Below, one piece after another: positions 878-21,764 of a DNA stretch of 43,997 nt. This DNA comes from a virus: the IMG/VR virus record IMGVR_UViG_3300025880_003256, positions 1 through 43,997 of that record; one strand, written 5' to 3'. The notes beneath the pieces were generated by a model. The model saw only the letters and a program-made list of their open reading frames with translations, was not told where the DNA came from and searched no databases. The stretch's first letter is position 1, and each line of letters starts with the position of its first letter. Position numbers and translations under genes: made by a program.

Positions 878-1666
878 ATGGCACATTGTGTAGTAAGTTT
901 AAGTGGTGGAATGGATAGCAGCACCCTATTGTTAAGAGCTATCGAGAAGTATGATACAGTAACAGGTATCTCATTTGACTATGGTCAAAAACATAGAGTT
1001 GAACTTGAAAGAGCTCAACAATTAATTGATTACCTTGCAAGTAAAGGTCACAAAGTAAATTATCGTCAAATCAAATTAGATGGGTTAGTAGATTTACTAG
1101 ATTCAGCTTTGGTTTCAGGTGGAGATGATGTACCAGAGGGACATTACGAACAAGATAATATGAAAGAAACAGTTGTTCCTAATAGAAACAAAATGTTTGC
1201 TTCAATTACACAAGCAGTAGCATTATCAATAGCAAATCGAACAGAAGATGTTTGTGATATTGCTTTAGGCATTCACGCTGGTGATCATGCTGTTTATCCT
1301 GATTGTAGACAAGAATTTAGAGATGCAGATGATGCAGCTTTTAGAATCGGAAATTGGGATGCTGATAGAGTAGGTTACTTTACACCTTATTTAGATACTG
1401 ATAAGTTTGGTATTCTACAAGATGGAGAAAAATTATGTGAAAAACTAAAAATTGATTTTGATGAAGTTTATAAAAGAACAAATACTTCTTATAAGCCTTA
1501 TCCTTCGGGAAATAGTGATTATAAGTCTGCTTCTTCTGTCGAGAGGATTGAGGCTTTTATTGCTTTGGGGAGAAAAGATCCTGTACAATATGAGGATGAG
1601 ACTGGAGAAGTTGATTACGAGGTAGCAAAATCTCATGTTAAAAAAGTTCTTGCTGAATACGTATAA
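878..1666 (+). CDS. queC: QueC-like 7-cyano-7-deazaguanine (preQ0) synthase
   Basis: QueC turns 7-carboxy-7-deazaguanine plus ammonia and ATP into preQ0 in the cytoplasm. The 262-residue product has the N-type ATP-pyrophosphatase P-loop SGGMDSS at residues 9-15, the DYGQKH segment near 34-39, VPNRN at 100-104 and GIHAGDH at 131-137, all typical of QueC; the length is slightly above the usual 220-240. The oddity is the C-terminal zinc site. Where the family has a Cys-Tyr followed by CGxCxxC, this protein has Ser204-Tyr and then Asp214, Ser217 and Ser220, so all four expected cysteine ligands are missing while the following Arg and Phe are kept. The ATP-binding half looks intact. The fold and pathway call is secure; whether it is active without zinc is not. 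Confidence 0.9.
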   Translation: MAHCVVSLSGGMDSSTLLLRAIEKYDTVTGISFDYGQKHRVELERAQQLIDYLASKGHKVNYRQIKLDGLVDLLDSALVSGGDDVPEGHYEQDNMKETVVPNRNKMFASITQAVALSIANRTEDVCDIALGIHAGDHAVYPDCRQEFRDADDAAFRIGNWDADRVGYFTPYLDTDKFGILQDGEKLCEKLKIDFDEVYKRTNTSYKPYPSGNSDYKSASSVERIEAFIALGRKDPVQYEDETGEVDYEVAKSHVKKVLAEYV

Positions 1667-1694
1667 TTACAAATAAATTTTTAAATTAAAAGTA

Positions 1695-1832
1695 ATGAAT
1701 GCAACACAAAACGGCAATACTCAGTTAAATTCTGAAAGAAATAACTTAAATAAAAGAGTTGATAATTTTAGATTACTAAGTAAAACTAAAAAGGTACAAT
1801 GGGATAGTATGAGAAGACATCGTACTATTTAA
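1695..1832 (+). CDS. hypothetical protein (45 aa)
   Basis: Short ORF between queC and the tRNA gene, ATG preceded by an A-rich stretch (aaaagta). The product is polar and basic, rich in Asn, Gln, Arg and Lys, ending RRHRTI. No family recognised. It stops 6 nt before the tRNA. Confidence 0.5.
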   Translation: MNATQNGNTQLNSERNNLNKRVDNFRLLSKTKKVQWDSMRRHRTI

Positions 1833-1838
1833 AGGACT

Positions 1839-1911
1839 TGTCTCATGGTGTAACTGGTAACACGTCTGTTTTTGGTACAGAAGAGTCTAGGTTCGAAACC
1901 TAGTGAGACAA
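1839..1911 (+). tRNA. tRNA-Gln (anticodon UUG)
   Basis: A complete 73-nt cloverleaf can be drawn. The acceptor stem pairs TGTCTCA (1839-1845) with TGAGACA (1904-1910). The D stem is GTG/CAC. The anticodon stem pairs TCTGT (1865-1869) with ACAGA (1877-1881), around a loop with anticodon TTG at 1872-1874. The T stem pairs CTAGG with CCTAG around TTCGAAA. The discriminator is A1911 and CCA is not encoded. It reads CAA, a common codon in this AT-rich phage. Although it lies in a queuosine-type gene cluster, a UUG anticodon is not a substrate for queuosine (which needs GUN), so the cluster does not act on this tRNA. Confidence 0.93.
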
Positions 1912-1921
1912 CTAAAATTAT

Positions 1922-2164
1922 ATGAAAAAGTTTTTAATTTTTTTATTAATATGGATTAGTCAAAATCTAGCTATACCATTTTGGGTTGTAGGACATATTC
2001 ATCTTTCAATTCATAACTTTCATGATTTAGTAGAAATAGGTTCTTCTATTGGAATGAATTTAATAGTATTAATAGGTTTTATAATAGATTTTAAAAAAAC
2101 AAATAGTTATGAAAAAACAAGAGTTACCCGATGCCAGAAAACACCAACAAATCAGCTTCATTAA
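1922..2164 (+). CDS. small membrane protein (80 aa)
   Basis: Begins 10 nt after the tRNA. Two hydrophobic segments are visible (about residues 4-24 and 43-57) separated by a His-rich loop, then a basic polar tail. It overlaps the next small gene by 56 nt, so the tail may not be conserved. No family recognised. Confidence 0.5.
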   Translation: MKKFLIFLLIWISQNLAIPFWVVGHIHLSIHNFHDLVEIGSSIGMNLIVLIGFIIDFKKTNSYEKTRVTRCQKTPTNQLH

Positions 2165-2273
2165 ATCAGGAATTCGTATTTTAGGGTATGGAGCTTTATG
2201 GTATAGTTTGGATATTGCAGTTATTTTACTTATATTGAGTGAAGTAGTAGGAATAGGAGAAGAGTTAGTATAA
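2109..2273 (+). CDS. small membrane protein (54 aa)
   Basis: ORF in another frame overlapping the end of the preceding one. It has a polar basic N-terminus (KKQELPDARKHQQ), then a hydrophobic segment from about residue 22 to 46 and a short acidic end. It fills the space before the thioredoxin gene. No family recognised. Confidence 0.5.
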   Translation: MKKQELPDARKHQQISFIKSGIRILGYGALWYSLDIAVILLILSEVVGIGEELV

Positions 2274-2289
2274 TAATTAAAAATTAAAT

Positions 2290-2532
2290 ATGAGTAAAAT
2301 TTATTATTTTAGTGCACCTTGGTGTGGTCCATGCAAAATGTTAGGACCTGTAATGGATAAAAGTGGGTTACCATTCCAAAAAATTAATGTAGATAGTGAT
2401 TCAACTTTATCCGCTAAATATGGAATTAGAAATGTTCCTACTTTAGTAAAAGTAGATGCTAGTGGAAATGAAATTAGTAGGTTAGTAGGTAATAATCCTT
2501 TAGATAAAATTAAAAATTGGTATAATGGGTAA
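2290..2532 (+). CDS. thioredoxin-like protein
   Basis: An 80-residue thioredoxin fold protein with the redox motif WCGPC at residues 11-15 and the cis-Pro loop NVPTLV near residue 55. It is shorter than host thioredoxins (about 105), a size common for phage thioredoxins/glutaredoxins. Likely role: reductant for ribonucleotide reductase or other phage enzymes. It overlaps the start of queD by 8 nt, so the two are probably translated together. Confidence 0.88.
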   Translation: MSKIYYFSAPWCGPCKMLGPVMDKSGLPFQKINVDSDSTLSAKYGIRNVPTLVKVDASGNEISRLVGNNPLDKIKNWYNG

Positions 2533-2989
2533 ATTTCAATCAACAAAAGTATTTGACGGATTCAGTACAGTGTTTCGTCAATGGAAAGCAGAAGATACAC
2601 ATTGTAGATTTATTCATGGATATGGGGTTTCATTTAAAATTTGGTTTGAAGGAGAATTAGACGAAAGGAATTGGGTCTGGGATTTTGGAGGAATGAAGAG
2701 AGCAAAAGGTACTATTGACGGTATGTCTCCAAAAGCATGGATGGATTTTATGTTTGACCATACTATGATTGTAGCCGAAGATGATCCTCATGCAAAAGCT
2801 TTCGCCCAGATGCATGAAGCCGGAGTAGCACAAGTAAGATTTATACCTGCTACTGGTTCTGAAAAATTTGCTGAATATGTATACGATAAAGTAAACCAAT
2901 TTATTTTTCCTGAAACTGATGGAAGAGTAAAAGTTGTAAAAGTAGAATTTAGAGAACATGGGAAAAATAGTGCTATTTACATCCCCTAA
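2525..2989 (+). CDS. queD: QueD-like 6-carboxy-tetrahydropterin synthase
   Basis: QueD converts dihydroneopterin triphosphate (the FolE product) into 6-carboxy-tetrahydropterin. The 154-residue product matches the QueD/PTPS family: Cys27 followed by IHGYG (His31), a WDFGGMK segment (family: DF..LK), Phe-Asp78-His79 (family LDH) and a C-terminal Glu in VEFREHG. Cys27 and His31 fall at the same numbers as in E. coli QueD. Two expected zinc ligands are absent: the His of the family's AAHRL motif is replaced within FSTVFRQW, and HGH has become HGY (Tyr33). This could be a family variant with a different metal site or altered chemistry. Placement directly before queE supports the pathway role. Confidence 0.8.
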   Translation: MGKFQSTKVFDGFSTVFRQWKAEDTHCRFIHGYGVSFKIWFEGELDERNWVWDFGGMKRAKGTIDGMSPKAWMDFMFDHTMIVAEDDPHAKAFAQMHEAGVAQVRFIPATGSEKFAEYVYDKVNQFIFPETDGRVKVVKVEFREHGKNSAIYIP

Positions 2990-3027
2990 ATGATTATAGT
3001 GAATAAAAAACCACTTAAAAAAATTAT

Positions 3028-3816
3028 ATGGAACATAAAAAATTAAAACGTATTGAGGATTACGATAAAAACCTCCCAATTGTAGAAATATATACAGCAG
3101 TACAATCAGAAGGATCTAGAGCAGGATACCCTACAGTTGTAATAAGAACTACAGGATGTACTCATAGATGTTATTTCGGTGAAGGAGGTTGGTGTGATAG
3201 TTGGTACACAAGTATCCACCCAGAAAAAGGACATTTTAATTTTAAAGATATTATTGCAATGTATGAGAAAAATCCTCATATAAAAGAAATGATGTTAACT
3301 GGAGGATCTCCAACTATGCATCCAGCTTTAGTAAATGAATTAACACATTTTGCACATGAAAACAATATATTCATTACTATTGAAACTGAGGGATCTCATT
3401 TTCTTCCTACCGATTATCCTATTAATTTACTTAGTATTAGTCCCAAGTTTAGTAACTCTGTCCCCGTTGTTGGTGTTGAAACACCTCAGGGAGCAATTAC
3501 CGACGAGAGAATGGTAAAACGTCATAATAAGTTTAGACTTAATTATGATGCAATAAAACAATCAATATCATACCATTCAGATTACCATATTAAACCCGTA
3601 TGGGACGGAAAAGATCAAGATGCTTTGGCTGAAATTATGGATTGTATAAAAACCTTGGATGTTAAATCTGAAAAAGTATGGTTTATGCCTGCAGGAGATT
3701 CTAGAGAAGCGTTATTTAAATCTTACCCTGTTTTATTTGATTGGGTTAGAGATAATGGTTATAGGATGACTTGGAGGCCTCATATTATAGCATTTGAAGA
3801 TCAAAGAGAAGTATAG
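3028..3816 (+). CDS. queE: QueE-like 7-carboxy-7-deazaguanine synthase (radical SAM)
   Basis: QueE is the radical-SAM enzyme making 7-carboxy-7-deazaguanine from the QueD product. The 262-residue protein shows the QueE N-terminal pattern EIYTAVQSEG...G.P..VIRTTGC, then cysteines at 44, 48 and 56, giving CX3CX7C instead of CX3CX2C. A glycine-rich TGGSP motif at 91-95 replaces the usual GGEP, and IETEGS (near 118) and SISPK (near 136) are typical. Length and order fit QueE well. The 5-residue longer spacing between the second and third cluster cysteines is unusual (other QueE proteins have variant spacings too). The next small gene starts inside its stop codon. Confidence 0.88.
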   Translation: MEHKKLKRIEDYDKNLPIVEIYTAVQSEGSRAGYPTVVIRTTGCTHRCYFGEGGWCDSWYTSIHPEKGHFNFKDIIAMYEKNPHIKEMMLTGGSPTMHPALVNELTHFAHENNIFITIETEGSHFLPTDYPINLLSISPKFSNSVPVVGVETPQGAITDERMVKRHNKFRLNYDAIKQSISYHSDYHIKPVWDGKDQDALAEIMDCIKTLDVKSEKVWFMPAGDSREALFKSYPVLFDWVRDNGYRMTWRPHIIAFEDQREV

Positions 3817-3950
3817 TGGATAAGCAAGAAGCCTTTCGTATATTAGAAGAAATAGAAGAAAAAGTAAATGTCTGTTGTGCCATAACAATGGAACCAGATG
3901 AAGTATTAATATTAATAGATAAACTAAAACAACAAATTAATGAAATTTAA
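3816..3950 (+). CDS. hypothetical protein (44 aa), GTG start
   Basis: The GTG start shares its first base with the queE stop (taGTG) and the ORF overlaps the following oxygenase gene by 11 nt. The product is a short amphipathic, Glu/Lys-rich protein with a CC pair in the middle, predicted mostly helical. The overlaps on both sides and the open frame argue for a real gene; no family recognised. A TTCGTATATT-like string at 3835-3844 lies inside this coding frame. Confidence 0.5.
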   Translation: MDKQEAFRILEEIEEKVNVCCAITMEPDEVLILIDKLKQQINEI

Positions 3951-4563
3951 AGACACCATTGGGGTATTTCCAAATGCTTTTACATTAAAAGAATGTAATG
4001 AAATTAAAAATTTATTTGATAAAAAAATAGATTTAAAAGAGGCCGTAGCTGGATATTCTAGCTCTGGTCAAGACAACAAAATGAAAAAATCAACTGATTA
4101 TAATTTATATAATGACACTTCACATGAGGGTATAACTCTTAGAGATAAAATTATTTCTAGGTTTAATGATACTTTAAGTGATAAGTATTTAAGCAAATTC
4201 CCTCATAATAGTGAATTTTCTCATGGTAGTATTATAGAGGGCAAATGTCATTACCCAGCTTTAAACTTACAAAAGTATGATAAAAGTGTAGGACATTATA
4301 ATGCTTGGCATTGTGAAAAAGATCATTTTGGAACAGCTCCAAGGCAATTTGTTTTCATTTTATATTTAAATGATGTTCCAAAAGGAGGAGAAACTCAATT
4401 TTTATTTAAGGAAGAAGGTTCACAAGATTATTTTAGTGTAAAACCTGAAGTAGGTAAAATGATTATACACCCAGCAAGTTGGCCTTATATTCATAAAGGG
4501 GCTATGCCTATAAGTAATGATAAATATATTGCTACAACTTGGTTACAATATGGGGATTGGTAA
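3940..4563 (+). CDS. 2-oxoglutarate/Fe(II) oxygenase, prolyl-4-hydroxylase-like
   Basis: A 207-residue protein with a double-stranded beta-helix oxygenase signature: AWHCEKD near residue 125 (metal-binding H-x-D/E), then FILYLNDVPKGGETQF, and a second His in PYIHKGA near residue 186, with KYIATTWLQY at the end where P4H enzymes bind 2-oxoglutarate through a basic residue. Such enzymes hydroxylate proteins or bases. It lies between queE and folE, so action on the modified base or on a phage protein are both possible; the sequence does not decide. Confidence 0.78.
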   Translation: MKFKDTIGVFPNAFTLKECNEIKNLFDKKIDLKEAVAGYSSSGQDNKMKKSTDYNLYNDTSHEGITLRDKIISRFNDTLSDKYLSKFPHNSEFSHGSIIEGKCHYPALNLQKYDKSVGHYNAWHCEKDHFGTAPRQFVFILYLNDVPKGGETQFLFKEEGSQDYFSVKPEVGKMIIHPASWPYIHKGAMPISNDKYIATTWLQYGDW

Positions 4564-4590
4564 AAAATAAAGTTATAAAAAATAAGTTAT

Positions 4591-5289
4591 ATGTCAGAAA
4601 ATAAACGTAGAAAAATACATGAAGAATTAGAAGTAGTAAAAGTAGGCTATGCAAATGGTGTTGCTGAAGGGTTTCCCTTCACTAACATAGAAAAAAAAGC
4701 AATGATTGATAACGCCGAAGAAGCTTACGGTAAATTTTTAGATGCTTTAAAATGTGATTGGAGAGAAGATCCCAATTCAATGGAAACACCTCGTCGTGTA
4801 GCTAAAGCTTATGTAAATGATCTATGGGCTGGTAGGTACACAGCAATGTCTCCTATAACATCCTTTCCTTCGGATGGGTATGATGGAATCGTTATTGAAA
4901 GAAACATCCCTCTTACCTCAATGTGTTCACACCACCACCAAACAATTGGGGGTGTAGTACACATTGGTTATATTGCAGGAGAAGGTGGTCAAGTAATTGG
5001 ATTATCTAAATTAAATAGAATTGTAGAATTATTTGGTCGTAGAGGAGCAATACAAGAACAATTAACATCAGCTATCCATAATGCCGTAAATAAAATTACA
5101 GAAGGTAATAAAGGTGTTATTGTTACTATAGTTGGAACACATAATTGTGTTAGTTGTAGAGGAGTAAAACATCAAGGAGCAGCAATGGTTACAACTAAAG
5201 CATCAGGTGTATTTAAAGATAATACCAATTTAGCTCGTAAAGAGTTTTTTGATAGTTTAAAAATAAATAACGGAGGACATAATATATAA
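4591..5289 (+). CDS. folE: GTP cyclohydrolase I
   Basis: FolE opens GTP to dihydroneopterin triphosphate, the first step towards preQ0 (and folate). The 232-residue protein shows the family core: METPRRVAKAY near 64, zinc ligands Cys112 and His115 in MCSHHH, GLSKLNRIVELFGRR at 137-151, QEQLT, then H184-N-Cys186 and CRGVKHQGA. The E of the usual CEHH is Ser here; otherwise the active site looks complete. It closes the four-enzyme preQ0 set with queC, queD and queE. Confidence 0.95.
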   Translation: MSENKRRKIHEELEVVKVGYANGVAEGFPFTNIEKKAMIDNAEEAYGKFLDALKCDWREDPNSMETPRRVAKAYVNDLWAGRYTAMSPITSFPSDGYDGIVIERNIPLTSMCSHHHQTIGGVVHIGYIAGEGGQVIGLSKLNRIVELFGRRGAIQEQLTSAIHNAVNKITEGNKGVIVTIVGTHNCVSCRGVKHQGAAMVTTKASGVFKDNTNLARKEFFDSLKINNGGHNI

Positions 5290-6516: not shown

Positions 6517-8259
6517 ATGTATACAAAATGTTATCAAGGTAAAAAATTAGGACATAATGTATGGGAAATGCATCTTTGGGAAGAAGATAAAGGTCATCAA
6601 GTTATTCCTTATGAAAATATAGCATATCAAGAGTGTAATGTAGAAGATCATACTAATATTGGATTAAATGGTGAACATTTAAAACATACTAATAATTGGT
6701 ATTTTTCTAAAAACCCTAATTATAGTGATAAGAATACCCCTGGCCTTCATTTCCATGATATGAAAGTTCACCAAAAATTCCTAGTTGAAAGATACGGAGT
6801 TAATGATGTACCTTCTACAGGTCATAGGGAAGTATTTTTTGATATCGAATGTGAAATTGGGGGGGCATTAACCGAAGATTATATTGAAAGTGCTCCAATG
6901 CCTATTACTTCAATTGCTTGGTGGGATAAAACACCTGATACTTGGCATATTTTAATTCTTGATAAAAAATCACAACTTAAACATACTAAAGCTAAAAATA
7001 AGGAAATTATACCTTGTAGTACTGAAAGTCAATTATTAGCTAAATTTATTGAAACCATCAGAGATATAGATCCTGACATATTAATTGGTTATAACTCAGA
7101 TTACTTTGATATACCTTATTTATATTACAGAATGTGTAATACAATAGGTAAGGAATTTGCAGATCATTTATCTCCCTTAGGTAAGGTAGAATCTAAAAAG
7201 TTTTCAAAATATTTTTTTAAACAAAACCAATATGTAGATATTGTAGGCATCGAATCTTTAGATTATATTCGTTTACATAAAAAGTATAGTTGGAAAGATG
7301 AACCAAGTTGGAAATTAGATGCAATTGGGGCCAAATATGTAGGTATGAATAAAATTGAATATGATGGGAATCTAGATCAATTATTTGAAACAGATATCCA
7401 TAAATTCATCCAGTATAACTTTGTTGATGTTGAAATTTTACAAAAATTAGATGAAAAACTACAATATATAGCATTAACTAAAAATATTTCACATAAAGGA
7501 AAACATAATTATAGTGAAGTATATGCTAATAGTATATCCCAAGATGGGGCTATATCTGCTTATTTATTATCCCAAAATATAATTCCACCACCTAAAGAAG
7601 CTTTTCCCCAAAAGAAAGATAGTTATGCCGGAGGATACCTTTTTTGCCCTAAAGCAGGATTGTATAAGTATATGTTTGATGAAGATTTAACATCGCTATA
7701 TCCATCTATAATAATGTCTATAAACATAGGTAAGGAAACATTTGTGGGGCGTATTGTAGATGCTAATGAGCGTAATAATAGATTGGGTCTTAACGATTTG
7801 AAAGAACGTGATCCTGAAGAGGAATTATTAGTTGAAAATAAAAAACGACAACAAACTAATGTAAATGTTGGTAGACTAATAACTATGATTGAACAAAGCA
7901 ATTTGTCAGTAGCAGCTAATGGTTCAATGTTTAGAACAGATAAAGAATCAGTTTTATCTACTATTCTAAAGAAATGGTTTGAAGAAAGAGTTGTGTACAA
8001 AAACCGTATGAAAAAAGCTTATAAAGCTGGGGATAAAGAATTAGGTGAATATAACCATTTAATGCAGTATACAATGAAAATTTTACTTAATAGTTTATAT
8101 GGAGCTACAGCCTTACCTTCATTTAGATATGGTATGAATTTTCAAACATTAAGCGAAGCTATTACCTTATCAGGACACAGAATAATCCAAGAATCAGCTC
8201 TTTGTGCTAACAGACATATGAATAAAGTTATGCGTGAAGAAATAAAATTAGAAATATGA
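6517..8259 (+). CDS. family B DNA polymerase, N-terminal part (exonuclease and half of palm/fingers)
   Basis: The 580-residue product is the first two thirds of a T4 gp43-like polymerase. The 3'-5' exonuclease site is visible as FFDIECE (Asp109, Glu111), GYNSDYFDIPYL and YNFVDVEIL. The polymerase has motif A as DEDLTSLYPS near 388 and motif B as KILLNSLYGA near 528. It stops about 50 residues after motif B, before the catalytic YxDTDS motif, which lies in a separate gene starting at 8931. The stop overlaps the next ATG (ATGA). No intein junction residues are seen at the break. It is probably active only with the second part. Confidence 0.93.
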   Translation: MYTKCYQGKKLGHNVWEMHLWEEDKGHQVIPYENIAYQECNVEDHTNIGLNGEHLKHTNNWYFSKNPNYSDKNTPGLHFHDMKVHQKFLVERYGVNDVPSTGHREVFFDIECEIGGALTEDYIESAPMPITSIAWWDKTPDTWHILILDKKSQLKHTKAKNKEIIPCSTESQLLAKFIETIRDIDPDILIGYNSDYFDIPYLYYRMCNTIGKEFADHLSPLGKVESKKFSKYFFKQNQYVDIVGIESLDYIRLHKKYSWKDEPSWKLDAIGAKYVGMNKIEYDGNLDQLFETDIHKFIQYNFVDVEILQKLDEKLQYIALTKNISHKGKHNYSEVYANSISQDGAISAYLLSQNIIPPPKEAFPQKKDSYAGGYLFCPKAGLYKYMFDEDLTSLYPSIIMSINIGKETFVGRIVDANERNNRLGLNDLKERDPEEELLVENKKRQQTNVNVGRLITMIEQSNLSVAANGSMFRTDKESVLSTILKKWFEERVVYKNRMKKAYKAGDKELGEYNHLMQYTMKILLNSLYGATALPSFRYGMNFQTLSEAITLSGHRIIQESALCANRHMNKVMREEIKLEI

Positions 8260-8519
8260 CATTAAAAAAACAATCTATTAGAAAAAACCAAATAATTACT
8301 GTAAATGGAACACCAGTTTCTAAAGAAGATTTAATCGCCAGAAGTGAAGAATGGAGTGATATCCAAGAAAACTTTTTTAGAAAAATGTTAAAACAAGGTG
8401 GAACTTTTAAAGTTGCAGGGATTAAATATAAAATTGAATTGTTAGAAAGAAATGATTTAGATTCAAATGGTAATAAACCGGTTAACCTTCCTCCAATACC
8501 TGGAGAAAGATCATTTTAA
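8256..8519 (+). CDS. hypothetical protein inside the split polymerase locus (87 aa)
   Basis: Starts in the ATGA overlap with the polymerase N-part. The product is charged and soluble, with a TVNGTPVSKEDLIARSEEW segment and a central FKVAGIKYKIELLER beta-like stretch; the end is Pro-rich (VNLPPIPGERSF). Not a homing endonuclease by any motif I can see. Its position between the polymerase halves suggests either an insertion or a partner protein; function unknown. Confidence 0.7.
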   Translation: MTLKKQSIRKNQIITVNGTPVSKEDLIARSEEWSDIQENFFRKMLKQGGTFKVAGIKYKIELLERNDLDSNGNKPVNLPPIPGERSF

Positions 8520-8529
8520 ATAATATAAA

Positions 8530-8934
8530 ATGAATTATAAAAAAGGAGTTATAGCTGGTGCTTTTGATGTATATCATCCTGGATATGTTCAAATGCTAAA
8601 AGAAGCAAAAGGGCAATGTGATTGCTTAGTAGTAATGTTACATACAGATCCTTCTAAAGAACGACCTGAAAAGGTTAAACCTATATTAACTGTTGATGAG
8701 CGTAAAGAAATGTTATTAAGTATTAGATATGTTGATGATGTTATTAGATATACTTACGAAGGACAATTATTAGATTTATTAAAATATGGTGAATTTAATA
8801 TTAGATTTTTAGGTGATGATTATAAAAATAAACCCTTTACTGGAGATAATTTAAAACTTCCTATTTATTATATTAATAGAAATCATGGATGGTCAACAAC
8901 TAAATTTAAAAAATTAATATCACAATCTATATGA
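8530..8934 (+). CDS. TagD-like cytidylyltransferase
   Basis: The 134-residue protein fits the glycerol-3-phosphate/ethanolamine-phosphate cytidylyltransferase family in length and layout. It has GAFDVYHPGY at 11-20 (family GTFD..HxGH), PEKVKPILTVDERKEML (family KP..s..eR..ml) and NRNHGWSTTKF near 118 (family RTxGISTT). The second His of the HxGH signature is Tyr here, which could weaken catalysis. It would make a CDP-activated small alcohol phosphate. It sits between the two polymerase parts, overlapping the second by 4 nt (ATGA). Confidence 0.78.
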   Translation: MNYKKGVIAGAFDVYHPGYVQMLKEAKGQCDCLVVMLHTDPSKERPEKVKPILTVDERKEMLLSIRYVDDVIRYTYEGQLLDLLKYGEFNIRFLGDDYKNKPFTGDNLKLPIYYINRNHGWSTTKFKKLISQSI

Positions 8935-9866
8935 AACATTTAGAAGAAACACCTTGGTGGATTTGTGACGAAGGAGATGAGAATTATTGTGCCTATGTAG
9001 ACACTGACTCTAATTACTTTAATGCAGAACCCTTACTTCTTAAGTTATACCCTAACTTTGAAGAATTACAGGCTGAGGAAAAAGATGATATTTTAGAAAA
9101 AGTAGCAATGAAATATCAGGATGTAATTAATGAAGATTATGATAGATTAGCTAAAGAATGTTTTAATGTAACTGAACATAGACTTGAAATGAAAACAGAA
9201 TGTGTTATCCGTTCAGCTTATTTCAGAGCAACTCGCCGTTATGCTCAGTGGATTACTAAACAAGAGGGAATTGCTAAAGAATCTTTAGATATTAAAGGTT
9301 TAGAGTTTATGAAAGCAAATTTTCCACCTATTTTAGGATCATTCTTTAATGATATTTTACAACAAGTATTAAAGGGTGAAGAAAAAGCTAGTATTTTAGA
9401 TCAAATTAAAGTATTTAAAAAACAAATACTAGATGGTACAATACCACTCACTAAATTAGGTAACCCATCAGCAGTTAAAAAACTAGAAAAATACTCGGGT
9501 AAAAATGCTAGGGCAGGAGAAATGTTTACAGAAATACTTAAAGGAGCTCCTGCACCCGTACGTGCTACAATCCGTTATAATGATTTACTAAGATTATGGC
9601 AATTAGATAAAAAGTATAATTTAATTACTCAAGCAGATAAAGTTAAATGGATATATTTAAAAGATAACCCTTACAAAATAGAAGCACTAGCCTTTTTTGA
9701 CTATGAAATGCCAGAAAAAGTTAATGATTTTTTAAATGCTTATGCTGATAGGCAAAAAGTATTTAATTCAATATTATTAAATAAATTAGAAGGATTTTTT
9801 AGTGATTTACAATGGTCATTAGATTTAAATCCTTACACAAATGCATTAGCATCCTTTGAGATATAA
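8931..9866 (+). CDS. family B DNA polymerase, C-terminal part (catalytic motif C and thumb)
   Basis: The 311-residue product starts about 20 residues before the catalytic motif CAYVDTDSNYF (near residue 22-31). It continues with the palm segment KTECVIRSAYFRATRRYAQW, a thumb region and KGAPAPVRATIRYN, then WIYLKDNPYKIEALAFFD, which match the C-terminal domain of T4 gp43. Joined to the product of 6517-8259 it makes a polymerase of about 890 residues, the usual gp43 size, with no obvious missing or repeated segment. The Phe-containing C-terminus (ALASFEI) is where gp43 contacts the clamp. Confidence 0.92.
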   Translation: MKHLEETPWWICDEGDENYCAYVDTDSNYFNAEPLLLKLYPNFEELQAEEKDDILEKVAMKYQDVINEDYDRLAKECFNVTEHRLEMKTECVIRSAYFRATRRYAQWITKQEGIAKESLDIKGLEFMKANFPPILGSFFNDILQQVLKGEEKASILDQIKVFKKQILDGTIPLTKLGNPSAVKKLEKYSGKNARAGEMFTEILKGAPAPVRATIRYNDLLRLWQLDKKYNLITQADKVKWIYLKDNPYKIEALAFFDYEMPEKVNDFLNAYADRQKVFNSILLNKLEGFFSDLQWSLDLNPYTNALASFEI

Positions 9867-9889: not shown

Positions 9890-10612
9890 ATGGTAAATAA
9901 AGCAACACTAACATCAGTCATTTCAAAATATTATTTAAATGGATTAAATAATCAAGTAAAATGGCGTATTAAAGATAATCAACTAACAGTTTATGCTGGT
10001 GATAATGGTAGAGTATGTAAAGTAGTACATAATAACTTTAACCTTGAAGACGCAGAATTAGGTGTATTTGATACCCATAAACTGAGTAAATTACTTTCTA
10101 TTACTAATGGTGAATTAAGTATTTCACTTGAAAAAATCAAAGCCGTTTATACTAAAATGAATATAGCTGATTTAAATTTTGATTTAACTTACTCATTAGC
10201 TGATATTCTAATTTTAGGTAAAAATACTTATTATGAAGATCCTGAAGAATTTGAAATACAAATAGATTTAACAAGAGAAGATATTGATCATTTAATTAAA
10301 GCAAAAAGTGCTTTAGCTGATGTTAATAATATGTTAATTACTACAACAACGGATTTTGATGGTATAAATGTATGTGAAATTATATTTGGTGATAATACTG
10401 GGTTTTCTAATAAAATCACTTACCAACTTAGAGGTAATATTACTAAAGGAGATATCCAAATCCCATTTGATTCAGATATATTTAAAGATATATTAAATGC
10501 TAATAAGGATATGGAAAGTGGTACACTAAAAATATCAGAAGTAGGAATGTTAAAAGCCAACTTTAAAACATCAGAAACAGAAAGTGAATATTTTATCGCG
10601 AGAAATGAATAA
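9890..10612 (+). CDS. DNA polymerase sliding clamp (gp45-like)
   Basis: The 240-residue product has the length of T4 gp45 (228) and the repeated clamp beta-strand pattern, with FDTHKLSKLLSI near 62 and QIPFDSDIFKDILNAN near 197 as the two most recognisable segments. It would form the ring that tethers the split polymerase. Position next to the polymerase and ahead of gp44/gp62 loader genes supports the call. Confidence 0.85.
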   Translation: MVNKATLTSVISKYYLNGLNNQVKWRIKDNQLTVYAGDNGRVCKVVHNNFNLEDAELGVFDTHKLSKLLSITNGELSISLEKIKAVYTKMNIADLNFDLTYSLADILILGKNTYYEDPEEFEIQIDLTREDIDHLIKAKSALADVNNMLITTTTDFDGINVCEIIFGDNTGFSNKITYQLRGNITKGDIQIPFDSDIFKDILNANKDMESGTLKISEVGMLKANFKTSETESEYFIARNE

Positions 10613-10709: not shown

Positions 10710-11129
10710 ATGAGTACATTATTTAATGAACGTACACCGTTCGACTTATTATTCCGTAACCTATTTAAGGCAGACGGCGTTTTCCAACCAACAACGTTTG
10801 AAAACAAACAACCACACCCACTAGATATTTTTTATGACGATGAAGGACTTCACTTTGAAGTTGCCTGTACTGGTCTAACTAAGAAAGACATCAAATTAGA
10901 AATTGATGGAGATCTTTTAAAAATTATTTATGATAAACCCAATGACGACGAATTTGATTATAGTGGCTACATCTATAAAGGATTAGCTAAAAGATCTTTT
11001 AACTTAGGTTATAAAGTAGCAGCTAAATTTGAACTTGAAAGTCTAACAGCAGAAATGAAGAATGGCTTACTTCATATTTTTATTCCAATTGCCGAATCTA
11101 AAAAGCCAAAATCAATTAAAATAAAATAA
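10710..11129 (+). CDS. Hsp20-type small heat shock protein
   Basis: The 139-residue protein has an alpha-crystallin domain from about 38 to 130, with FEVACTGLTKKDIKLEIDGDLLKI and the conserved late segment AEMKNGLLHIFIP (family A.l.nGvL.i.iP). The C-terminal I-x-I (SIKIK) is the usual oligomer contact. It holds unfolding proteins in the cytoplasm. T4-like marine phages often carry one; here it precedes a GroES/GroEL pair. Confidence 0.92.
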   Translation: MSTLFNERTPFDLLFRNLFKADGVFQPTTFENKQPHPLDIFYDDEGLHFEVACTGLTKKDIKLEIDGDLLKIIYDKPNDDEFDYSGYIYKGLAKRSFNLGYKVAAKFELESLTAEMKNGLLHIFIPIAESKKPKSIKIK

Positions 11130-11166
11130 AAGTTTTACCAAAAAAGCGTGTCCTAGCGCATTTTAT

Positions 11167-11176
11167 TTCGTATATT
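11167..11176 (+). promoter_or_regulatory. TTCGTATATT promoter-like motif
   Basis: Exact copy 24 nt before the ATG at 11201, after hsp20 and ahead of the groES-groEL genes. A weak GC-rich hairpin (GCGT/GCGC near 11147-11160) precedes it. Confidence 0.65.
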
Positions 11177-11200
11177 TCGGTCTAAATAGATAAGTTATAT

Positions 11201-11521
11201 ATGGCAAGAAAAGCAAAATCACTCACAACAATCTCAGATCCTTCAATGGAACCTTATTATATTACTAAGGATGAGCTCTGTTACACAGTAAATGAAAGAA
11301 TTATTCCAAATAAAGACCATTTTAGGTCAAAAGGGAATGGAACTGAATATGCAAAACCCCAGGGTTATTATCCTGAATTTAGACAAGCACTTCAAAAAAT
11401 TGCTAAAGAAAAAATGCATACTCGAAAAGATTATGAAACTTTAAGTAAATTCATAAATGAATATAAATTAATAGAAACTAACATTAAAAATTACACAGAT
11501 GGCCTTAGAAGCACTATTTGA
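11201..11521 (+). CDS. hypothetical protein ahead of groES (106 aa)
   Basis: Soluble, basic protein with a central Gly/Tyr/Pro segment (KPQGYYPEFRQAL) and a long C-terminal helix. No family recognised. It is the first gene after a promoter-like motif and overlaps groES by 23 nt, so it shares its transcript with the chaperonin genes. Confidence 0.7.
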   Translation: MARKAKSLTTISDPSMEPYYITKDELCYTVNERIIPNKDHFRSKGNGTEYAKPQGYYPEFRQALQKIAKEKMHTRKDYETLSKFINEYKLIETNIKNYTDGLRSTI

Positions 11522-11867
11522 TGCGGTTATAGTTAAACCGATCGAAATTGAAGAAACCACTTTTGGAAATATTATAGTCCCAGATTTAGGTAAAGAAAAA
11601 AATGAAACAGCAGAAATTATTTCTGTAGGACCTGGTAGAATGCTACAAGATGGTACTATGAAACCCCTTCCACTTAATGTGGGAGATAAAGTAGTTTTAC
11701 CAACAATGGGTTTTACAAAATTACCATATGATGGAGAGGAATATTATGTAGGTCCTGGAAATCAAATTTTAGCTAAAATTACTGAAACCGTTGATGTTTC
11801 GGAAATATTAGAAGAAACAAAAGAGTCATTAACCAAAGAAGAAATTAAAGATCTATCAAATGAGTAA
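11499..11867 (+). CDS. groES: GroES-like co-chaperonin
   Basis: A 122-residue protein with the GroES beta-barrel: ALFDAVIVKPIEIEETTFGNIIVP (start and mobile loop), ETAEIISVGPG (near 37), LNVGDKVVLP (near 59) and QILAKI (end of barrel). The mobile loop carries the hydrophobic IIVP that docks GroEL. An acidic tail of about 25 residues extends past the usual GroES end (about 95). It caps the phage GroEL encoded next door, the stop overlapping the groEL ATG by 8 nt. Confidence 0.92.
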   Translation: MALEALFDAVIVKPIEIEETTFGNIIVPDLGKEKNETAEIISVGPGRMLQDGTMKPLPLNVGDKVVLPTMGFTKLPYDGEEYYVGPGNQILAKITETVDVSEILEETKESLTKEEIKDLSNE

Positions 11868-13476
11868 ACAAGTTATTTTAGGTTCTGAAGCAAGAACCAA
11901 TTTAGTTAAAGGAATTGATATATTAGCTGATGCTGTAGTATCAACCTTAGGACCAAATGGTCGAAATGTAGTAATTGCAAATGAACAAGGAGCACCACAA
12001 TCAACTAAAGATGGGGTTACAGTTGCTAAATCAATTAATTTAAAAGACCCAAATCAAGAATTAGGGGTACAATTAGTAAAACAAGCTGCAATAAAAACAG
12101 CTGAAAAAGCAGGAGATGGTACTACTACTTCTACTTTATTAGCAAGAGAAATGATTAAAGCAGGTTTAACAGCTTTAAATAATAGTGAAAATGCAGTACA
12201 AATAAAAAGAGATATTGATTTTACAGTTAAAGAAGTTGTAAATAATCTAAAACAAATATCAGAAGATATTTCAGGGGAGGAACAGTTAGAACAAATTGCT
12301 ACTATATCAGCTAATAATGATCCTGAAACGGGGAAACTAATTGCTACTTCTATTGAGAAAGTAGGAATGGAAGGAGTTGTTCATATTGAAGAATCTCGTA
12401 CTGGAGAAACATATCTTGAAACTGTTGAAGGAATGCAATTTGACAGAGGGTATAAATCTCCTTATTTTGTTACTGATAATAATTCAATGACTTCTACTTT
12501 AGATAATCCTTTAATATTAATTGCAGATCAAAAATTAACACAAGTTAAAGAATTATTACCTATTTTAGAAAGTGTATCAACCCAAGCAAGATCTCTTCTA
12601 ATTATAGCTGAAGATATTGATAATGAGGCTTTAGCAACTCTTATTGTTAATAAAATGAGAGGTACTATGAAAGTATGTGCTGTTAAAGCTCCTGACTTTG
12701 GTGATAGAAGAAAATTAATTTTAGAAGATATTGCTATTACAACAGGTGGGCAAGTATTTGATACTCAAAAAGGAATGAAGTTAGATAAGTTTAGCTGGGA
12801 TTGGTTTGGAGAAGCTAGAACTGTGACTATAGGAAAAGAAGAAACAACTATTGTAGATGGAAAAGGAGAAGTTGGGCCTATTGAATCACGTATTGAAGAA
12901 TTACAACAACAAATTGATAAAGCAGCAACACCATTTGAAACAGAAAAACTTCAAGAAAGGTTAGCAAAATTTGTAGGTGGGGTAGCAATAATTCATGTAG
13001 GTGGTAATACTGAAACCGAAATGAAAGAAAAGAAAGACCGTGTTGATGATGCATTACATGCTACTAGAGCAGCTATAGAAGAAGGAATAGTACCAGGAGG
13101 AGGTTCAGCATTATTGTATGCTTCATCAGGTATAGAAGCTAAATCAACAGGAGCTGCAATCGTAATAGAGGCATGTTCAAAACCATTTAATCAAATTTTG
13201 GTTAATGCTGGGTTTGATGAAGTTAAAGGTCAAATATTAGCTGATAATTTAGTTAATTCGGGTAATGATACTTGGACAGGATTTAATATTAAAACTGAAG
13301 AAACAGTTAATATGAAAGAAGCAGGTATTATTGATCCAACTAAAGTAGCTAGAACAGCATTACAAAATGCTGCATCAGTAGCAGGTACTGTTCTATTAAC
13401 AGAATGTACAGTAGTAAATGAACTGGAAGAAAGTAAAAACCCACAAATAGACCCATCAATGATGGGGATGATGTAA
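11860..13476 (+). CDS. groEL: GroEL-like chaperonin
   Basis: A full-length 538-residue group I chaperonin (E. coli 548). ATP-site residues are visible: LGPNGRNV near 30, TKDGVTVAK (Asp51), GDGTTTSTLLA near 86, and PGGGSALLYA near 405; the end carries MMGMM as in the GGM tail. The apical-domain segment RGYKSPYFVTD is conserved. It should form the double ring with phage GroES to fold phage proteins in the cytoplasm, instead of or beside the host machine. No disrupting change seen. It shows the same AT-rich codon use as its neighbours. Confidence 0.96.
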   Translation: MSKQVILGSEARTNLVKGIDILADAVVSTLGPNGRNVVIANEQGAPQSTKDGVTVAKSINLKDPNQELGVQLVKQAAIKTAEKAGDGTTTSTLLAREMIKAGLTALNNSENAVQIKRDIDFTVKEVVNNLKQISEDISGEEQLEQIATISANNDPETGKLIATSIEKVGMEGVVHIEESRTGETYLETVEGMQFDRGYKSPYFVTDNNSMTSTLDNPLILIADQKLTQVKELLPILESVSTQARSLLIIAEDIDNEALATLIVNKMRGTMKVCAVKAPDFGDRRKLILEDIAITTGGQVFDTQKGMKLDKFSWDWFGEARTVTIGKEETTIVDGKGEVGPIESRIEELQQQIDKAATPFETEKLQERLAKFVGGVAIIHVGGNTETEMKEKKDRVDDALHATRAAIEEGIVPGGGSALLYASSGIEAKSTGAAIVIEACSKPFNQILVNAGFDEVKGQILADNLVNSGNDTWTGFNIKTEETVNMKEAGIIDPTKVARTALQNAASVAGTVLLTECTVVNELEESKNPQIDPSMMGMM

Positions 13477-17223: not shown

Positions 17224-18663
17224 ATGAAACAAAATTTTAAACATCTTCCTTTAAAAGACAGGAAGAAAATCTTACTTATTTGTGATGATATCAGAGTTCA
17301 TTCTGGGGTAGCAACAGTAGCAAAGGAAATTGTATTACATACTTCTCACCATTTTAATTGGGTACAAATGGGAGGAGCTATAAAACACCCGGATAAAGGA
17401 AAGTTATTTGATTTAAGTTCTGAGGTAAATAAACAGCAAAAAATAGAAGATTCTTATGTTAGGTTATACCCCCAAGATGGATATGGAACACCTGATATTC
17501 TTAGGGAAGTAATAAAAATAGAAAAACCTGATGCTATAATGTTATTTACAGATCCTAGATATTTTACTTGGGTATTTAATATGGAACAAGAAATTAGAAA
17601 AAATATCCCAATTACTTATCTAAATATATGGGATGACTATCCTGCACCTATGTACAATAGACCTTATTATGAGGCATGTGATTTATTAATGGGTATATCT
17701 AAGCAGACTGTTAATATAAATAAATTAGTATTAAAGGATAGAGAAAAAAATAGAATTTTTCAATACTTACCACATGGATTAAACCCAGAAGTATATTTTC
17801 CATTAGATAAAGAAGATAAAGGATTTAAAGATTTTAAAAAACAGTTATTTCCTAAAGGAAAACCTAAATTTACTATGTTTTTTAATTCACGTAATATCAG
17901 GAGAAAACAAATCCCAGATGCACTTTTAGCATTTAGATCCTTTTTAGATAGTTTACCCCTAGAAGAAGCATTACAATGTAAATTTATTTTACATACTGAA
18001 TTATTAACAGAAGCAGGAACAGACCTATCAGTAGTACATGAATACTTATTTGGGGAAAAATATCATGATTGTGTAGTTTTTTCTACTAATAAATTAACCC
18101 AACAACAATTAAACTACTTATATAATGCAGCTGATGTTCAAATATTATTAACATCTAATGAAGGGTGGGGGTTATCTATAACTGAAGCTTTACTTTCTGG
18201 TACACCTATAATAGCTAATGTAACTGGAGGTATGCAAGATCAAATGAGGTTTGAAGATAAAAATGGAAAATGGTTTACACCTGATAGTAATATTCCATCT
18301 AACCATAGAGGAACATATAAAAAACATGGTGAATGGGCATTTCCCGTTTTTCCAACTTCAAGATCAGTTCAAGGTTCACCTCAAACACCCTATATCTATG
18401 ATGATAGATGTGCTTGGGAAGATGTATGTGAGAAAATTAAAGAAGTATATTCTTTAAGTGATAAAGAACGTAAATCTAGAGGATTAAAAGGTAGAGAATG
18501 GGCTATGAGTAATGAAGCAGGATTTACTGTAAAACATCAAGCAAATACCTTTATGAAAACTTTCAATACCTTATTTGATACTTGGAAACCAAGAGAAAAA
18601 TATGAAGTAATTAATACTAATGAGTATAAAGGTAAATTTTTAAATCATAAAATAATATATTAA
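17224..18663 (+). CDS. glycosyltransferase, GT-B fold (GT4-like)
   Basis: A 479-residue protein with a GT-B layout: an N-terminal Rossmann half with ILLICDDIRVHSGVATVAKEI, a linker LPHGLNPEVYFP near 182, and the C-terminal sugar-nucleotide site TSNEGWGLSITEALLSGTPIIAN near 317-339 (E-x7-E motif). Donor unknown. First gene of a 12.6-kb sugar cassette; its last base is the first base of the next gene. Confidence 0.85.
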   Translation: MKQNFKHLPLKDRKKILLICDDIRVHSGVATVAKEIVLHTSHHFNWVQMGGAIKHPDKGKLFDLSSEVNKQQKIEDSYVRLYPQDGYGTPDILREVIKIEKPDAIMLFTDPRYFTWVFNMEQEIRKNIPITYLNIWDDYPAPMYNRPYYEACDLLMGISKQTVNINKLVLKDREKNRIFQYLPHGLNPEVYFPLDKEDKGFKDFKKQLFPKGKPKFTMFFNSRNIRRKQIPDALLAFRSFLDSLPLEEALQCKFILHTELLTEAGTDLSVVHEYLFGEKYHDCVVFSTNKLTQQQLNYLYNAADVQILLTSNEGWGLSITEALLSGTPIIANVTGGMQDQMRFEDKNGKWFTPDSNIPSNHRGTYKKHGEWAFPVFPTSRSVQGSPQTPYIYDDRCAWEDVCEKIKEVYSLSDKERKSRGLKGREWAMSNEAGFTVKHQANTFMKTFNTLFDTWKPREKYEVINTNEYKGKFLNHKIIY

Positions 18664-19979
18664 TGAATAAACCAAGATTTGTTATAAGTTGCCCTTTCGA
18701 TACCTACTCAGGATATGGGGCAAGATCAAGAGATATAGTTAAAGCTATTATTGAATTAGATAAATATAATGTTCAACTTTTACCACAAAGGTGGGGAGCA
18801 ACTGCATGGGGTTTTTGTAAAGATCACCCTGAATGGGAATTTTTATTAAATTATAAAGTTTCACAAGATTGGAATAAAACCCAACCTGATATTTGGATGC
18901 AAATTACAATCCCAAACGAGTTTCAAGCCGTGGGGAAATATAATATTGGATGTACCGCAGGTATAGAATCTACAGCTTGTAAACCTGAATGGGTAGAAGG
19001 ATTAAATAGAATGGATATGAATTGGGGCTCTTCAAAGCATACAAAGGAAGTATTTAAATCTATGGCTTTTGAAAAAAAAGATAAAAATACAAATCAACTT
19101 ATAGGTAAAGTAACTTTAGTTAAACCCATGCATGTTGTATTTGAAGGAGCAGATTTAGATGTTTATAAACCTATTAAATCAAAAAATACTATAGATTTAA
19201 GTAATATTAAAGAAAATTTTAATTATTTATTTGTAGGTCATTGGATGCAAGGAGAAATAGGACATGATAGAAAAAATGTAGGGTTTTTAATTAAAGCCTT
19301 TTTTGAAATATTTAAAAATAAAAAAACTAAACCTGGATTAATTCTAAAAACTTCCATAGGAGTAGATTCTTATATGGGAAGAGATACTATCCTTAAAAAA
19401 ATTAAAGATATTAGAAAAAGTGTTAATTCAACAGACTTACCTAATATATATTTAATTAGTGGAGAATTTAATAATAGTGAAATGAATGAATTATATAACC
19501 ATTCAAAAATCAAATCTATGGTTAGTTTAACTAAAGGAGAAGGATTTGGAAGACCTTTATTAGAATTTAGCTTAACAGGTAAACCTATTATAGCAACTAA
19601 CTTTTCAGGTCATACAGATTTTTTAAATAAAAATTTTACTACACTTTTACCTGGTGAATTAGAACCCGTTCATAAAAGTGCAGCAAATCAATGGTTAATA
19701 CCTGAATCACAATGGTTTAAAGTAAGTTCATCTCATGTAGGTCATTCATTTCAAGATATGTATCAAAATTATAAAAAATTTAAAGTTAAATCTAAACAGC
19801 AAGCTAAATATTCTGCCTCTAATTTTAGTTTTGATGGAATGAAAAAACTGATAAATAATATTTTAGAAGCTAATATCCCAGAATTTCCAAAACAAATGGA
19901 TTTAAATATTCCCACTTTAAAGAAAAAATACGGAAATATACCTAAATTAACTTTACCAACTTTAAAAAAAAATAATTAA
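18663..19979 (+). CDS. glycosyltransferase, GT-B fold (GT4-like)
   Basis: A 438-residue GT-B protein: SCPFDTYSGYGARSRDIV at the start, VGHWMQGEIGHDRKNVGFLIKAF in the middle, and LTKGEGFGRPLLEFSLTGKPIIATNFSG (E-x7-E motif) near 285-312. It differs clearly from the gene before it, so the two are not a simple duplication. Joined to the preceding gene by TAATG. Confidence 0.85.
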   Translation: MNKPRFVISCPFDTYSGYGARSRDIVKAIIELDKYNVQLLPQRWGATAWGFCKDHPEWEFLLNYKVSQDWNKTQPDIWMQITIPNEFQAVGKYNIGCTAGIESTACKPEWVEGLNRMDMNWGSSKHTKEVFKSMAFEKKDKNTNQLIGKVTLVKPMHVVFEGADLDVYKPIKSKNTIDLSNIKENFNYLFVGHWMQGEIGHDRKNVGFLIKAFFEIFKNKKTKPGLILKTSIGVDSYMGRDTILKKIKDIRKSVNSTDLPNIYLISGEFNNSEMNELYNHSKIKSMVSLTKGEGFGRPLLEFSLTGKPIIATNFSGHTDFLNKNFTTLLPGELEPVHKSAANQWLIPESQWFKVSSSHVGHSFQDMYQNYKKFKVKSKQQAKYSASNFSFDGMKKLINNILEANIPEFPKQMDLNIPTLKKKYGNIPKLTLPTLKKNN

Positions 19980-19981
19980 TT

Positions 19982-20425
19982 ATGAATTTTGATGAATTGA
20001 GAATATGTACTCGCTGTGGTTCTAATGCTTGCTACAAACAAGAAGTTACAAAAGATATCAATATAGAATTATGTTATGGTTGTGGGTTCCAATCTAATTC
20101 TGTAATGACTAAGGGATCAGATTTTTTTAATGAACAATTTGAAATATTACCTGAATTATATAAGGTATTAATGGATGAAGAAGAAGATACTGGTAAAATT
20201 TGGATGCCTACTACCGTTAATATAAAAGAGCAAGGTATGGTATTTGCAAATGGGGTATCAAGAGATAATTGGTGTTGGTCAGCTGTAAAATCAATTCCTG
20301 TTAAGGAAGATGAAAAAGAAAAATATAATGGAGAAAGTTTTAGAGTTGATATGTCCACTGTTGAAAATTTTAGAGAACGTGACTTTATGGATGCTTTATC
20401 ATATATTGGGGTATTACCAAAATAA
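19982..20425 (+). CDS. zinc-ribbon protein of unknown function (147 aa)
   Basis: N-terminal four-cysteine pattern CTRCGSNAC...CYGCG (about residues 9-33) suggests a zinc ribbon; the rest has a WCWSAVKSIPV patch and no known motif. Placed between glycosyltransferases, 2 nt after one and 9 nt before the next. Confidence 0.7.
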   Translation: MNFDELRICTRCGSNACYKQEVTKDINIELCYGCGFQSNSVMTKGSDFFNEQFEILPELYKVLMDEEEDTGKIWMPTTVNIKEQGMVFANGVSRDNWCWSAVKSIPVKEDEKEKYNGESFRVDMSTVENFRERDFMDALSYIGVLPK

Positions 20426-20434
20426 TAAAATTAT

Positions 20435-21058
20435 ATGAGAATAAGTTATGCAATAACAGTCTGTAACGAATACGAAGAAATTCAAAAGTTACTTTCATTT
20501 CTTTTATTAAATATTAGAGAAGAAGATGAAATAGTAGTATTGTTTGATAAAAAATCTGGCACAGCAGAAGTATGGGAATATTTAATAGAATTACGAAAAC
20601 ATGAATATATTAAATTAACCTCTAAGACATTTAAAAACCATTTTGCTGATTGGAAAAATTATTTAAAGGATCTATGTATTGGGGATTATATTTTCCAAAT
20701 AGATGCAGATGAAACCCCAGACGAATCTCTAATAAACAATTTACCTTTAATCTTAGAAGCAAACCCAAACAATGAAGTTTATTTAGTTCCTAGAATTAAT
20801 ACAGTAGAGGGGTTAACTCAAGAACATATTAATAAATGGAGATGGAATGTAAATGAAAAAGGATGGGTTAACTGGCCAGACTATCAATGGAGAATTTGGA
20901 AAAATAAACCAGAGATTAAATGGGTAAATAAAGTCCATGAAAAATTAGAAGGATTTAGAACTTACGCTACTCTTCCTGCTGAAGAAGGTGTGGCTTTATA
21001 CCACCCTAAAGACATTAAAAGACAAGAAAAACAAAATAATTATTACGATACTTTGTAA
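20435..21058 (+). CDS. family 2 glycosyltransferase (GT-A fold)
   Basis: A 207-residue GT-A domain: ISYAITVCNEYEEIQKLL at the start, DEIVVLFDKKSGT, and the metal-binding DADE near 92 in FQIDADETPDE. A VNKVHEKLEG segment near 166 with a conserved H-E follows, as in WaaE/KdtX-like glycosyltransferases. Acceptor unknown. Confidence 0.82.
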   Translation: MRISYAITVCNEYEEIQKLLSFLLLNIREEDEIVVLFDKKSGTAEVWEYLIELRKHEYIKLTSKTFKNHFADWKNYLKDLCIGDYIFQIDADETPDESLINNLPLILEANPNNEVYLVPRINTVEGLTQEHINKWRWNVNEKGWVNWPDYQWRIWKNKPEIKWVNKVHEKLEGFRTYATLPAEEGVALYHPKDIKRQEKQNNYYDTL

Positions 21059-21062
21059 AAAT

Positions 21063-21764
21063 ATGAAAGAACATATATTAAATAATTTAAATAATGTAGG
21101 CATATGTGTAGTTGAAGATTACTTTACACCTGAATTTTGTGATCAAGCTGTTGAAGATATAGAAGAGGGTTTGATTAAATATAAATCTAAGATACAATCC
21201 TCTTCCCATGAGGGAACATCAGGTGATTTTAGATTATTTAAAATGGAAAACCATTATAATACAGCTAAAGAATTTGCAAATGATCCTTTATTATTAGAAG
21301 TATGTAGTTCTTATTTTGGTCAAGAAATTAATAGTCATTTTGTTTTAGGCGGAAAAGTTAAACATAACCCCAAACAAATTACTAACAGTGGAGGTGGATG
21401 GCATAGAGATAATAGAGCTAAACAAATTAAAACTTTAGTATACTTATCAGATGTTGAAGAAGAAAATGGTCCCTATTTATTCCTTCCTTCATCAAATCAA
21501 TATGATTTATCTACTAGAGATGGGATTGGAAGAGCAACTAGATATGAAGATAAAAGTATAAACTCATTTTGTAAAGAAAATGATTTCACTCCTTTTAAAG
21601 TTATAGGTAAAAAAGGAACAGTAATATTTGCAGATACATCTTTTATTCATAGGGGTGCTAATATACAAGGAGGTACACGTTACACTTATACTAATTATTA
21701 TTTTGAAAACCATCCTCAACGTATTCAAATGAGTAAGGATAAATGGGGTAAAATGTATATTTAA
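21063..21764 (+). CDS. PhyH-family 2-oxoglutarate/Fe(II) dioxygenase
   Basis: I choose ATG 21063, just after the preceding stop, over 20988, which lies inside it. The 233-residue product has the phytanoyl-CoA dioxygenase pattern: WHRD with His114 and Asp116, FIHRGAN with His196, and Arg206 in GGTRY for 2-oxoglutarate binding. Members hydroxylate small molecules, including sugar or lipid precursors. Inside a sugar cassette, oxidation of a glycan or its carrier is plausible. Its last base is the first base of the next gene. Confidence 0.85.
   Translation: MKEHILNNLNNVGICVVEDYFTPEFCDQAVEDIEEGLIKYKSKIQSSSHEGTSGDFRLFKMENHYNTAKEFANDPLLLEVCSSYFGQEINSHFVLGGKVKHNPKQITNSGGGWHRDNRAKQIKTLVYLSDVEEENGPYLFLPSSNQYDLSTRDGIGRATRYEDKSINSFCKENDFTPFKVIGKKGTVIFADTSFIHRGANIQGGTRYTYTNYYFENHPQRIQMSKDKWGKMYI

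Follow-up and report, generated by a model that had tools for sequence, protein, structure and literature searches.

A T4-type family B DNA polymerase probably made of two subunits, and a gene-accepting junction between its genes, in a group of uncultured phages

Introduction

The replicative DNA polymerase of a group of uncultured, mostly marine phages is very probably an enzyme of two subunits, in which a polymerase B (PolB) of the T4 type, broken once in an ancestor, is encoded by two adjacent genes whose junction acts as a coupled boundary that accepts other genes. The window, that is, the whole stretch of DNA analysed here, is IMG/VR record IMGVR_UViG_3300025880_003256, an entire virus contig of 43,997 bp. 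A first-pass annotation had described in it a PolB split just before the DTDS motif, with two unrelated genes between the parts, and both the coordinates and the gene content proved correct.

From the sequence comparisons described below we infer a single origin of the break, assembly of the subunits in trans, translational coupling and an exchange of cassettes driven by recombination. In particular, a single break in the group's ancestor would have cut the gene in the loop of the palm that connects motif B and motif C, and the two cistrons would have stayed adjacent and translationally coupled via an ATGA stop/start overlap. The upstream product (N) would supply the exonuclease, motifs A and B and the fingers, the downstream product (C) motif C and the thumb, and the active site would arise only through their assembly in trans. 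The junction would then be an ordinary coupled boundary, so that an 87-aa gene without assigned function (O87), a changing set of cargo genes and occasional homing endonucleases could enter it, and recombination in the flanking polymerase halves would exchange the junction genes.

Split replicative polymerases have so far been isolated curiosities; here the split is, on the evidence of the junctions collected, fixed in a large group and has a new position, in the palm. It provides a naturally occurring place at which to divide a polymerase into two parts, and it is a caution to annotation pipelines, in which a search for an intact gp43 can overlook this kind of polymerase or cut it short. No published description of the split in this group was found in an incomplete coverage of the literature.

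Organization of the polymerase locus

All of the features of the locus are on the forward strand. The N subunit (580 aa, 6517–8259) matches Pfam DNA_pol_B_exo1 and DNA_pol_B, the full-length phage polymerase family phrog_262 (1.6e-108) and T4/RB69 gp43 in the PDB, and contains the N-terminal domain, the 3'-5' exonuclease, the first part of the palm, the fingers and motifs A and B. The C subunit (311 aa, 8931–9866), which is recognized by phrog_262 (3.1e-46), by RB69 gp43 and through an AF2 model, contains motif C, the rest of the palm and the thumb; the catalytic motif C, YVDTDS, is read at 8994–9011 and is preceded by 21 residues of the subunit. The exonuclease motifs and the polymerase motifs A, B and C of a gp43-type enzyme are thus all present when N and C are taken together, but they are never in one polypeptide, two ORFs being found in 215 of the 215 junctions described below. 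The halves rebuild a gp43 of about 890 residues, as had been annotated: their summed length is 580 + 311 = 891 aa, and they cover complementary shares of the 856 positions of phrog_262 (38–569 for N and 565–842 for C).

Between the halves lie O87 (8256–8519), defined by its ORF, its relatives and a model with a small alpha/beta core, and a cytidylyltransferase-like cargo gene of 134 aa (8530–8934; PF01467, 8.5e-12; phrog_7878, 1.5e-32). The sequence ATGA joins the stop of N to the start of O87 in a 4-nt overlap (8256–8259) and, in the same way, the stop of the cargo gene to the start of C (8931–8934), while 10 nt separate O87 from the cytidylyltransferase gene; the four genes are therefore joined by ATGA overlaps or short gaps, in agreement with the first-pass annotation.

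Downstream of C follow, in this order, a probable clamp gene, an Hsp20-like gene, groES, groEL and the clamp loader. The first of these (240 aa, 9890–10612) is named a probable sliding clamp (gp45-like) from its position and resemblance, and Pfam and PHROG searches gave no significant match for it. The Hsp20-like, groES and groEL genes (10710–13476) stand within the replication block, in an order that is kept in most of the relatives examined.

A search of the 43,997-bp window for a further match to PolB or to an exonuclease domain gave none, and relatives of 158–173 kb carry PolB only as the same N and C, apart from a weak match to the exonuclease alone in two of the records that were searched; a second complete polymerase, whose existence elsewhere in the genome had been raised as an objection to the split, was seen neither in the window nor in these relatives. 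A split intein was ruled out: a Pfam scan of the window found no intein domain, and the overhangs at the break, of about 7 and 13 residues, are too short to hold intein halves. A group I intron at the break was also rejected, the Rfam scan of the window yielding only a tRNA.

The split in related phages

Relatives were collected from five protein searches, one DNA-pattern scan of viral contigs and one scan of genome contigs, and the results were collapsed to 215 distinct IMG/VR junction sequences. In this comparison with related phages, which had been proposed as a check, the split has the same position in all of the 215 distinct junctions, among which a fused copy of the polymerase was sought and 0 were found; the identical break in so many distinct junctions rules out an assembly error, the other objection foreseen. 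In a sample drawn from the sequences closest to a few C or N queries and from one pattern scan, whose proportions are not population frequencies, 126 of the 215 junctions contain O87, alone or with others, 75 contain no gene, 13 contain other genes only and 1 has a 43-nt spacer. In the insert-free relatives the same ATGA links N straight to C: the overlap is ATGA in 63 of the 75 gene-free junctions and TAATG in nine, and short spacers occur in the other three. Since 75 distinct relatives lack any inserted gene and yet stay split, the split is independent of insertion, and the inserted genes occupy a pre-existing gene boundary.

The pattern scan required the end of N to be followed by the start of C within 22–52 nt and ignored the frame, so that a fused gene keeping both motifs would also have been caught. 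It returned 60 loci, with a stop and a frame shift in all 60 and the 4-nt ATGA overlap in 57. Indels of whole codons beside the junction (the 70-nt and 64-nt forms) keep the ATGA overlap, as would be expected if the stop and the start were under selection.

In the nearest lineages outside the group the polymerase is a single, unsplit ORF, and a tree with three unsplit outgroups sets the split sequences apart as one group, whose deepest subgroup has O87 in the gap. An apparent single frame of 977 aa in three basal records was examined and discarded: N and C share the frame there, but stops intervene. As for the host, MAG contigs from metagenomic data hint at Flavobacteriaceae.

Position of the break and state of the two halves

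By alignment, the break falls at about residue 609 of T4 gp43 (898 aa), nine residues before DTDS (618), in the loop of the palm between motif B and motif C. The C subunit begins with a head peptide of 13 residues (MKHLEETPWWICD, 8931–8969) of the pattern MKH[LI]E[DE]TPW[WF]ICD, which is nearly invariant among 200 distinct C proteins and absent from unsplit relatives; a counterpart was sought by alignment in Microcystis phage Mel-JY01, in the locus L224 and in T4, and none was found. The head may serve as a docking element in place of the original loop. The AF2 model of the C subunit matches T4/RB69 gp43 over about 175 residues (E 2e-6). When the subunit is folded alone, the thumb is predicted with confidence and the palm, including the region of motif C, poorly, which at most hints at a palm sheet that needs N, shallow alignments also giving poor models. 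The C subunits end in tails of the SFEI, FFNF or FFKF type, a candidate clamp-binding peptide.

By their pattern of conservation both halves are working genes under purifying selection. DTDS is retained in 200 of 200 C proteins, and the exonuclease and motif A/B patterns in 156–159 of 159 N proteins; in the pairs compared, dN/dS is about 0.02–0.13 for both N and C, and the distances of N and C are correlated across loci (r = 0.83–0.92).

Gene content of the junction

The genes found in the gap, all on the forward strand, form about 29 clusters in 35 arrangements, and the cytidylyltransferase of the window is one of these interchangeable clusters. The types of cargo include DUF6165, a cupin of the mannose-6-phosphate-isomerase type, cytidylyltransferase, DegT aminotransferase, GNAT, formyltransferase, glycosyltransferase, FkbM methyltransferase, a PLP-dependent enzyme, an epimerase, an Smr-like domain and DUF2452, the last being the main exception to the rule that, in the loci fetched, cargo clusters are nearly all confined to the junction. 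Junctions bearing O87 often add sugar-modification cargo. The cargo turns over, the gap content being identical in just 41% of the pairs whose polymerases are 2–5% apart. Insertions longer than 500 nt reach 43% at the junction, a figure inflated by sampling near the subgroup of the window itself, against 17–22% at other operon boundaries; because these other boundaries also take insertions of this size, the junction is one insertion site among several, and the most frequently used. Direct repeats flanking the insertion were sought and none was found.

The window shares its junction with one contig (L003), and the closest non-identical relative found is L004. Between the window and L004, dS is 0.26 for N and 0.21 for C, against 1.16 for O87 and 0.64 for the cytidylyltransferase, and nucleotide identity falls from about 0.95 to 0.71–0.85, the drop being confined to the junction; this pattern fits a replacement of the gap content, which would have taken place via recombination in the flanks. 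A more elaborate view would make the junction a dedicated cassette-exchange site, with the halves as homology arms, the ATGA overlaps as universal adaptors and resident homing endonucleases driving conversion, and with O87 retained there as a bridging third subunit; we hold this combination to be improbable. If it were true, phages would swap glycan-modification and other cargo genes at the N|C junction.

One locus, L125, has no gene between N and C (2960–3060), and its N carries a 28-residue tail (GLDENIEYAEEPNDPKIERNISPRPYGI) that may be left over from an earlier insert.

O87 is single-copy where it is found, either in the gap (126 loci) or, in some phages with an empty junction, elsewhere, near queC or a membrane-protein gene; some empty-junction contigs, which are fragments, showed no O87. 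Its core is strongly conserved in the alignment. Its C-terminal tail (...PGERSF, 8445–8516 in the window), recognized by alignment and modelled with low confidence as unstructured, is common to the junction copies (PGERTF / PGEDSRF) and missing in four copies read elsewhere in the genome. Searches in Pfam, PHROG, phage tblastn, PDB folds and viral folds gave no match for O87.

Origin of the break and alternative explanations

The first-pass annotation had proposed an old insertion that had since lost its endonuclease or had it replaced. The junction does harbour homing endonucleases, in 4 of the 215 and each time between N and O87 (GIY-YIG in L455 and L456, HNH in L470 and L510), and in these four loci the last 200–240 nt or so of N are replaced, the altered N ending in ...KDPKFKEEFLNSL and ...KSPEATKDFLENL. 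The N of L470 is 92–100% identical to that of L477, which lacks an endonuclease, until the last 240 nt or so, where identity drops to 64–72%, while C is 95–98% identical; a comparable fall at the N end separates L455 from L449. A replacement of this kind is what homing with an altered target would be expected to leave, and homing elements visit the junction, because the four junctions have both the endonuclease and, alongside, the replaced stretch of N. A further locus, L488, has the motif B stretch of the L470 type without the endonuclease. These data, with the presence of O87 in the gap of the deepest subgroup, which leaves room for an early insertion, speak for a homing-endonuclease insertion that made the split, as suspected for phage 25, and was then lost or replaced; we nevertheless consider this origin unlikely. 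A gene split in this manner should be whole where the insert is absent, but the 75 insert-free junctions are still split, and the part of the proposal that saw the break as the scar of the present insertion is not supported. Moreover, endonucleases are rare, Pfam and PHROG searches found none between the halves of the window, and the loci that have them are close to loci that do not, so that the endonucleases appear to have come to a gene that was already split. An ancient endonuclease is a possible source of the break. Empty, O87-only, multi-gene and endonuclease-bearing junctions can here be compared side by side, which makes testable the debated question whether mobile elements split genes or invade genes already in pieces.

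The other explanations concern the product rather than the origin of the break. O87 could be a third subunit that bridges the halves, in an N-O87-C operon to which only the remaining genes are cargo: it is the only gene found in most of the occupied junctions (126 of 140), it is already there in the deepest subgroup, and it has the conserved core and the junction-only tail described above. We think this quite improbable, since N and C persist in phages without O87 in the gap, which makes such a role possible but unneeded; furthermore, some phages keep a tail-less O87 elsewhere, O87 alleles swap more freely (r = 0.54 for the gene against C, as compared with 0.92 for N against C), and no fold similarity was detected. 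That the ATGA overlap is instead a programmed frameshift signal, from which a fused polymerase is still made, would suit the empty junctions, where the reading frame changes between N and C, which overlap by a few nucleotides, but it is very hard to reconcile with the lack of a conserved slippery sequence (TTATGA, ATATGA, TAATG and spacers of 2–16 nt are all found), with the 140 loci whose intervening sequence could not be bridged by a frameshift, and with a C that has its own start and near-invariant head. Least credible of all, and scarcely to be entertained, is the idea that N and C are relics of a defunct polymerase whose place another enzyme has taken: nothing was found in its favour, and against it stand the catalytic motifs retained, the low dN/dS and the absence of a second PolB in the 158–173 kb relatives. 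The two-subunit enzyme with a single ancestral break is thus the reading that we prefer.

Comparison with known split polymerases

In the review PMC2988022, the gp43 of Aeromonas phages 44RR2.8t and 25 is described as split into 43A and 43B (Petrov, Ratnayaka and Karam 2010), the parts of phage 25 gp43 are reported to co-purify with polymerase activity, and it is argued that the endonuclease of phage 25 may have invaded a gene already split. As in the group described here, a T4-type PolB is made from two adjacent cistrons, which in phage 25 have a homing endonuclease between them. The break of the Aeromonas phages, however, is in the fingers, at about T4 residue 510 (measured on 44RR), whereas the present one lies about 100 residues downstream, in the palm, at about 609 and before motif C, so that the initial suggestion that T4-like phages are known to be split at this same site did not hold. 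In addition, the present split is a fixed feature of a large group, the cistrons are mostly joined by ATGA and the cargo genes are many. The nrdA of phage Aeh1, split by mobE, is a gene in pieces produced via a homing endonuclease (PMC2988022). It resembles the present case in that an enzyme essential to the phage comes as two pieces and that some members carry endonucleases at the site; here, in contrast, 75 distinct relatives are split without an insert and the cargo is mostly other than endonucleases.

Family B replicative polymerases made as two polypeptides are also found in Archaea, in Methanobacteriales and, with a split intein, in Nanoarchaeum equitans (PMC4104785), but those are associated with inteins, for whose halves there is no room here. 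Likewise, the PolB of jumbo phage MIJ3 is interrupted between two ORFs, with a split intein and an HNH gene (PMC6892783), and its parts bear intein blocks for splicing, none of which is seen in the present halves. The closest annotated phage polymerase is that of Mel-JY01 (33.5% and 32% identity), a single 848-aa protein without the insert and without the MKHLEDTPWWICD head. In an uncultured phage of 484 kb (LR756508.1, 9938–17874), PolB is interrupted at almost the same position; other genes lie in the gap, and there are apparent inteins at motif B and motif C. The same site may have been split independently in this phage, and a search for relatives of its split polymerase confirmed none.

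Other features of the window

A glycan cluster at 17224–29833 of the window comprises several glycosyltransferases, NeuB, a UDP-GlcNAc 2-epimerase, a cytidylyltransferase similar to CMP-sialic acid synthetase and a protein similar to GT29 sialyltransferases (PF00777, 6e-25), a family known mainly from eukaryotes. The content of the cluster suggests that the phage makes or alters surface sugars similar to sialic acid. Near the polymerase, at 878–5289, homologues of queC, queE and folE were recognized by eye from their translations, which suggests a deazaguanine modification of the phage DNA.
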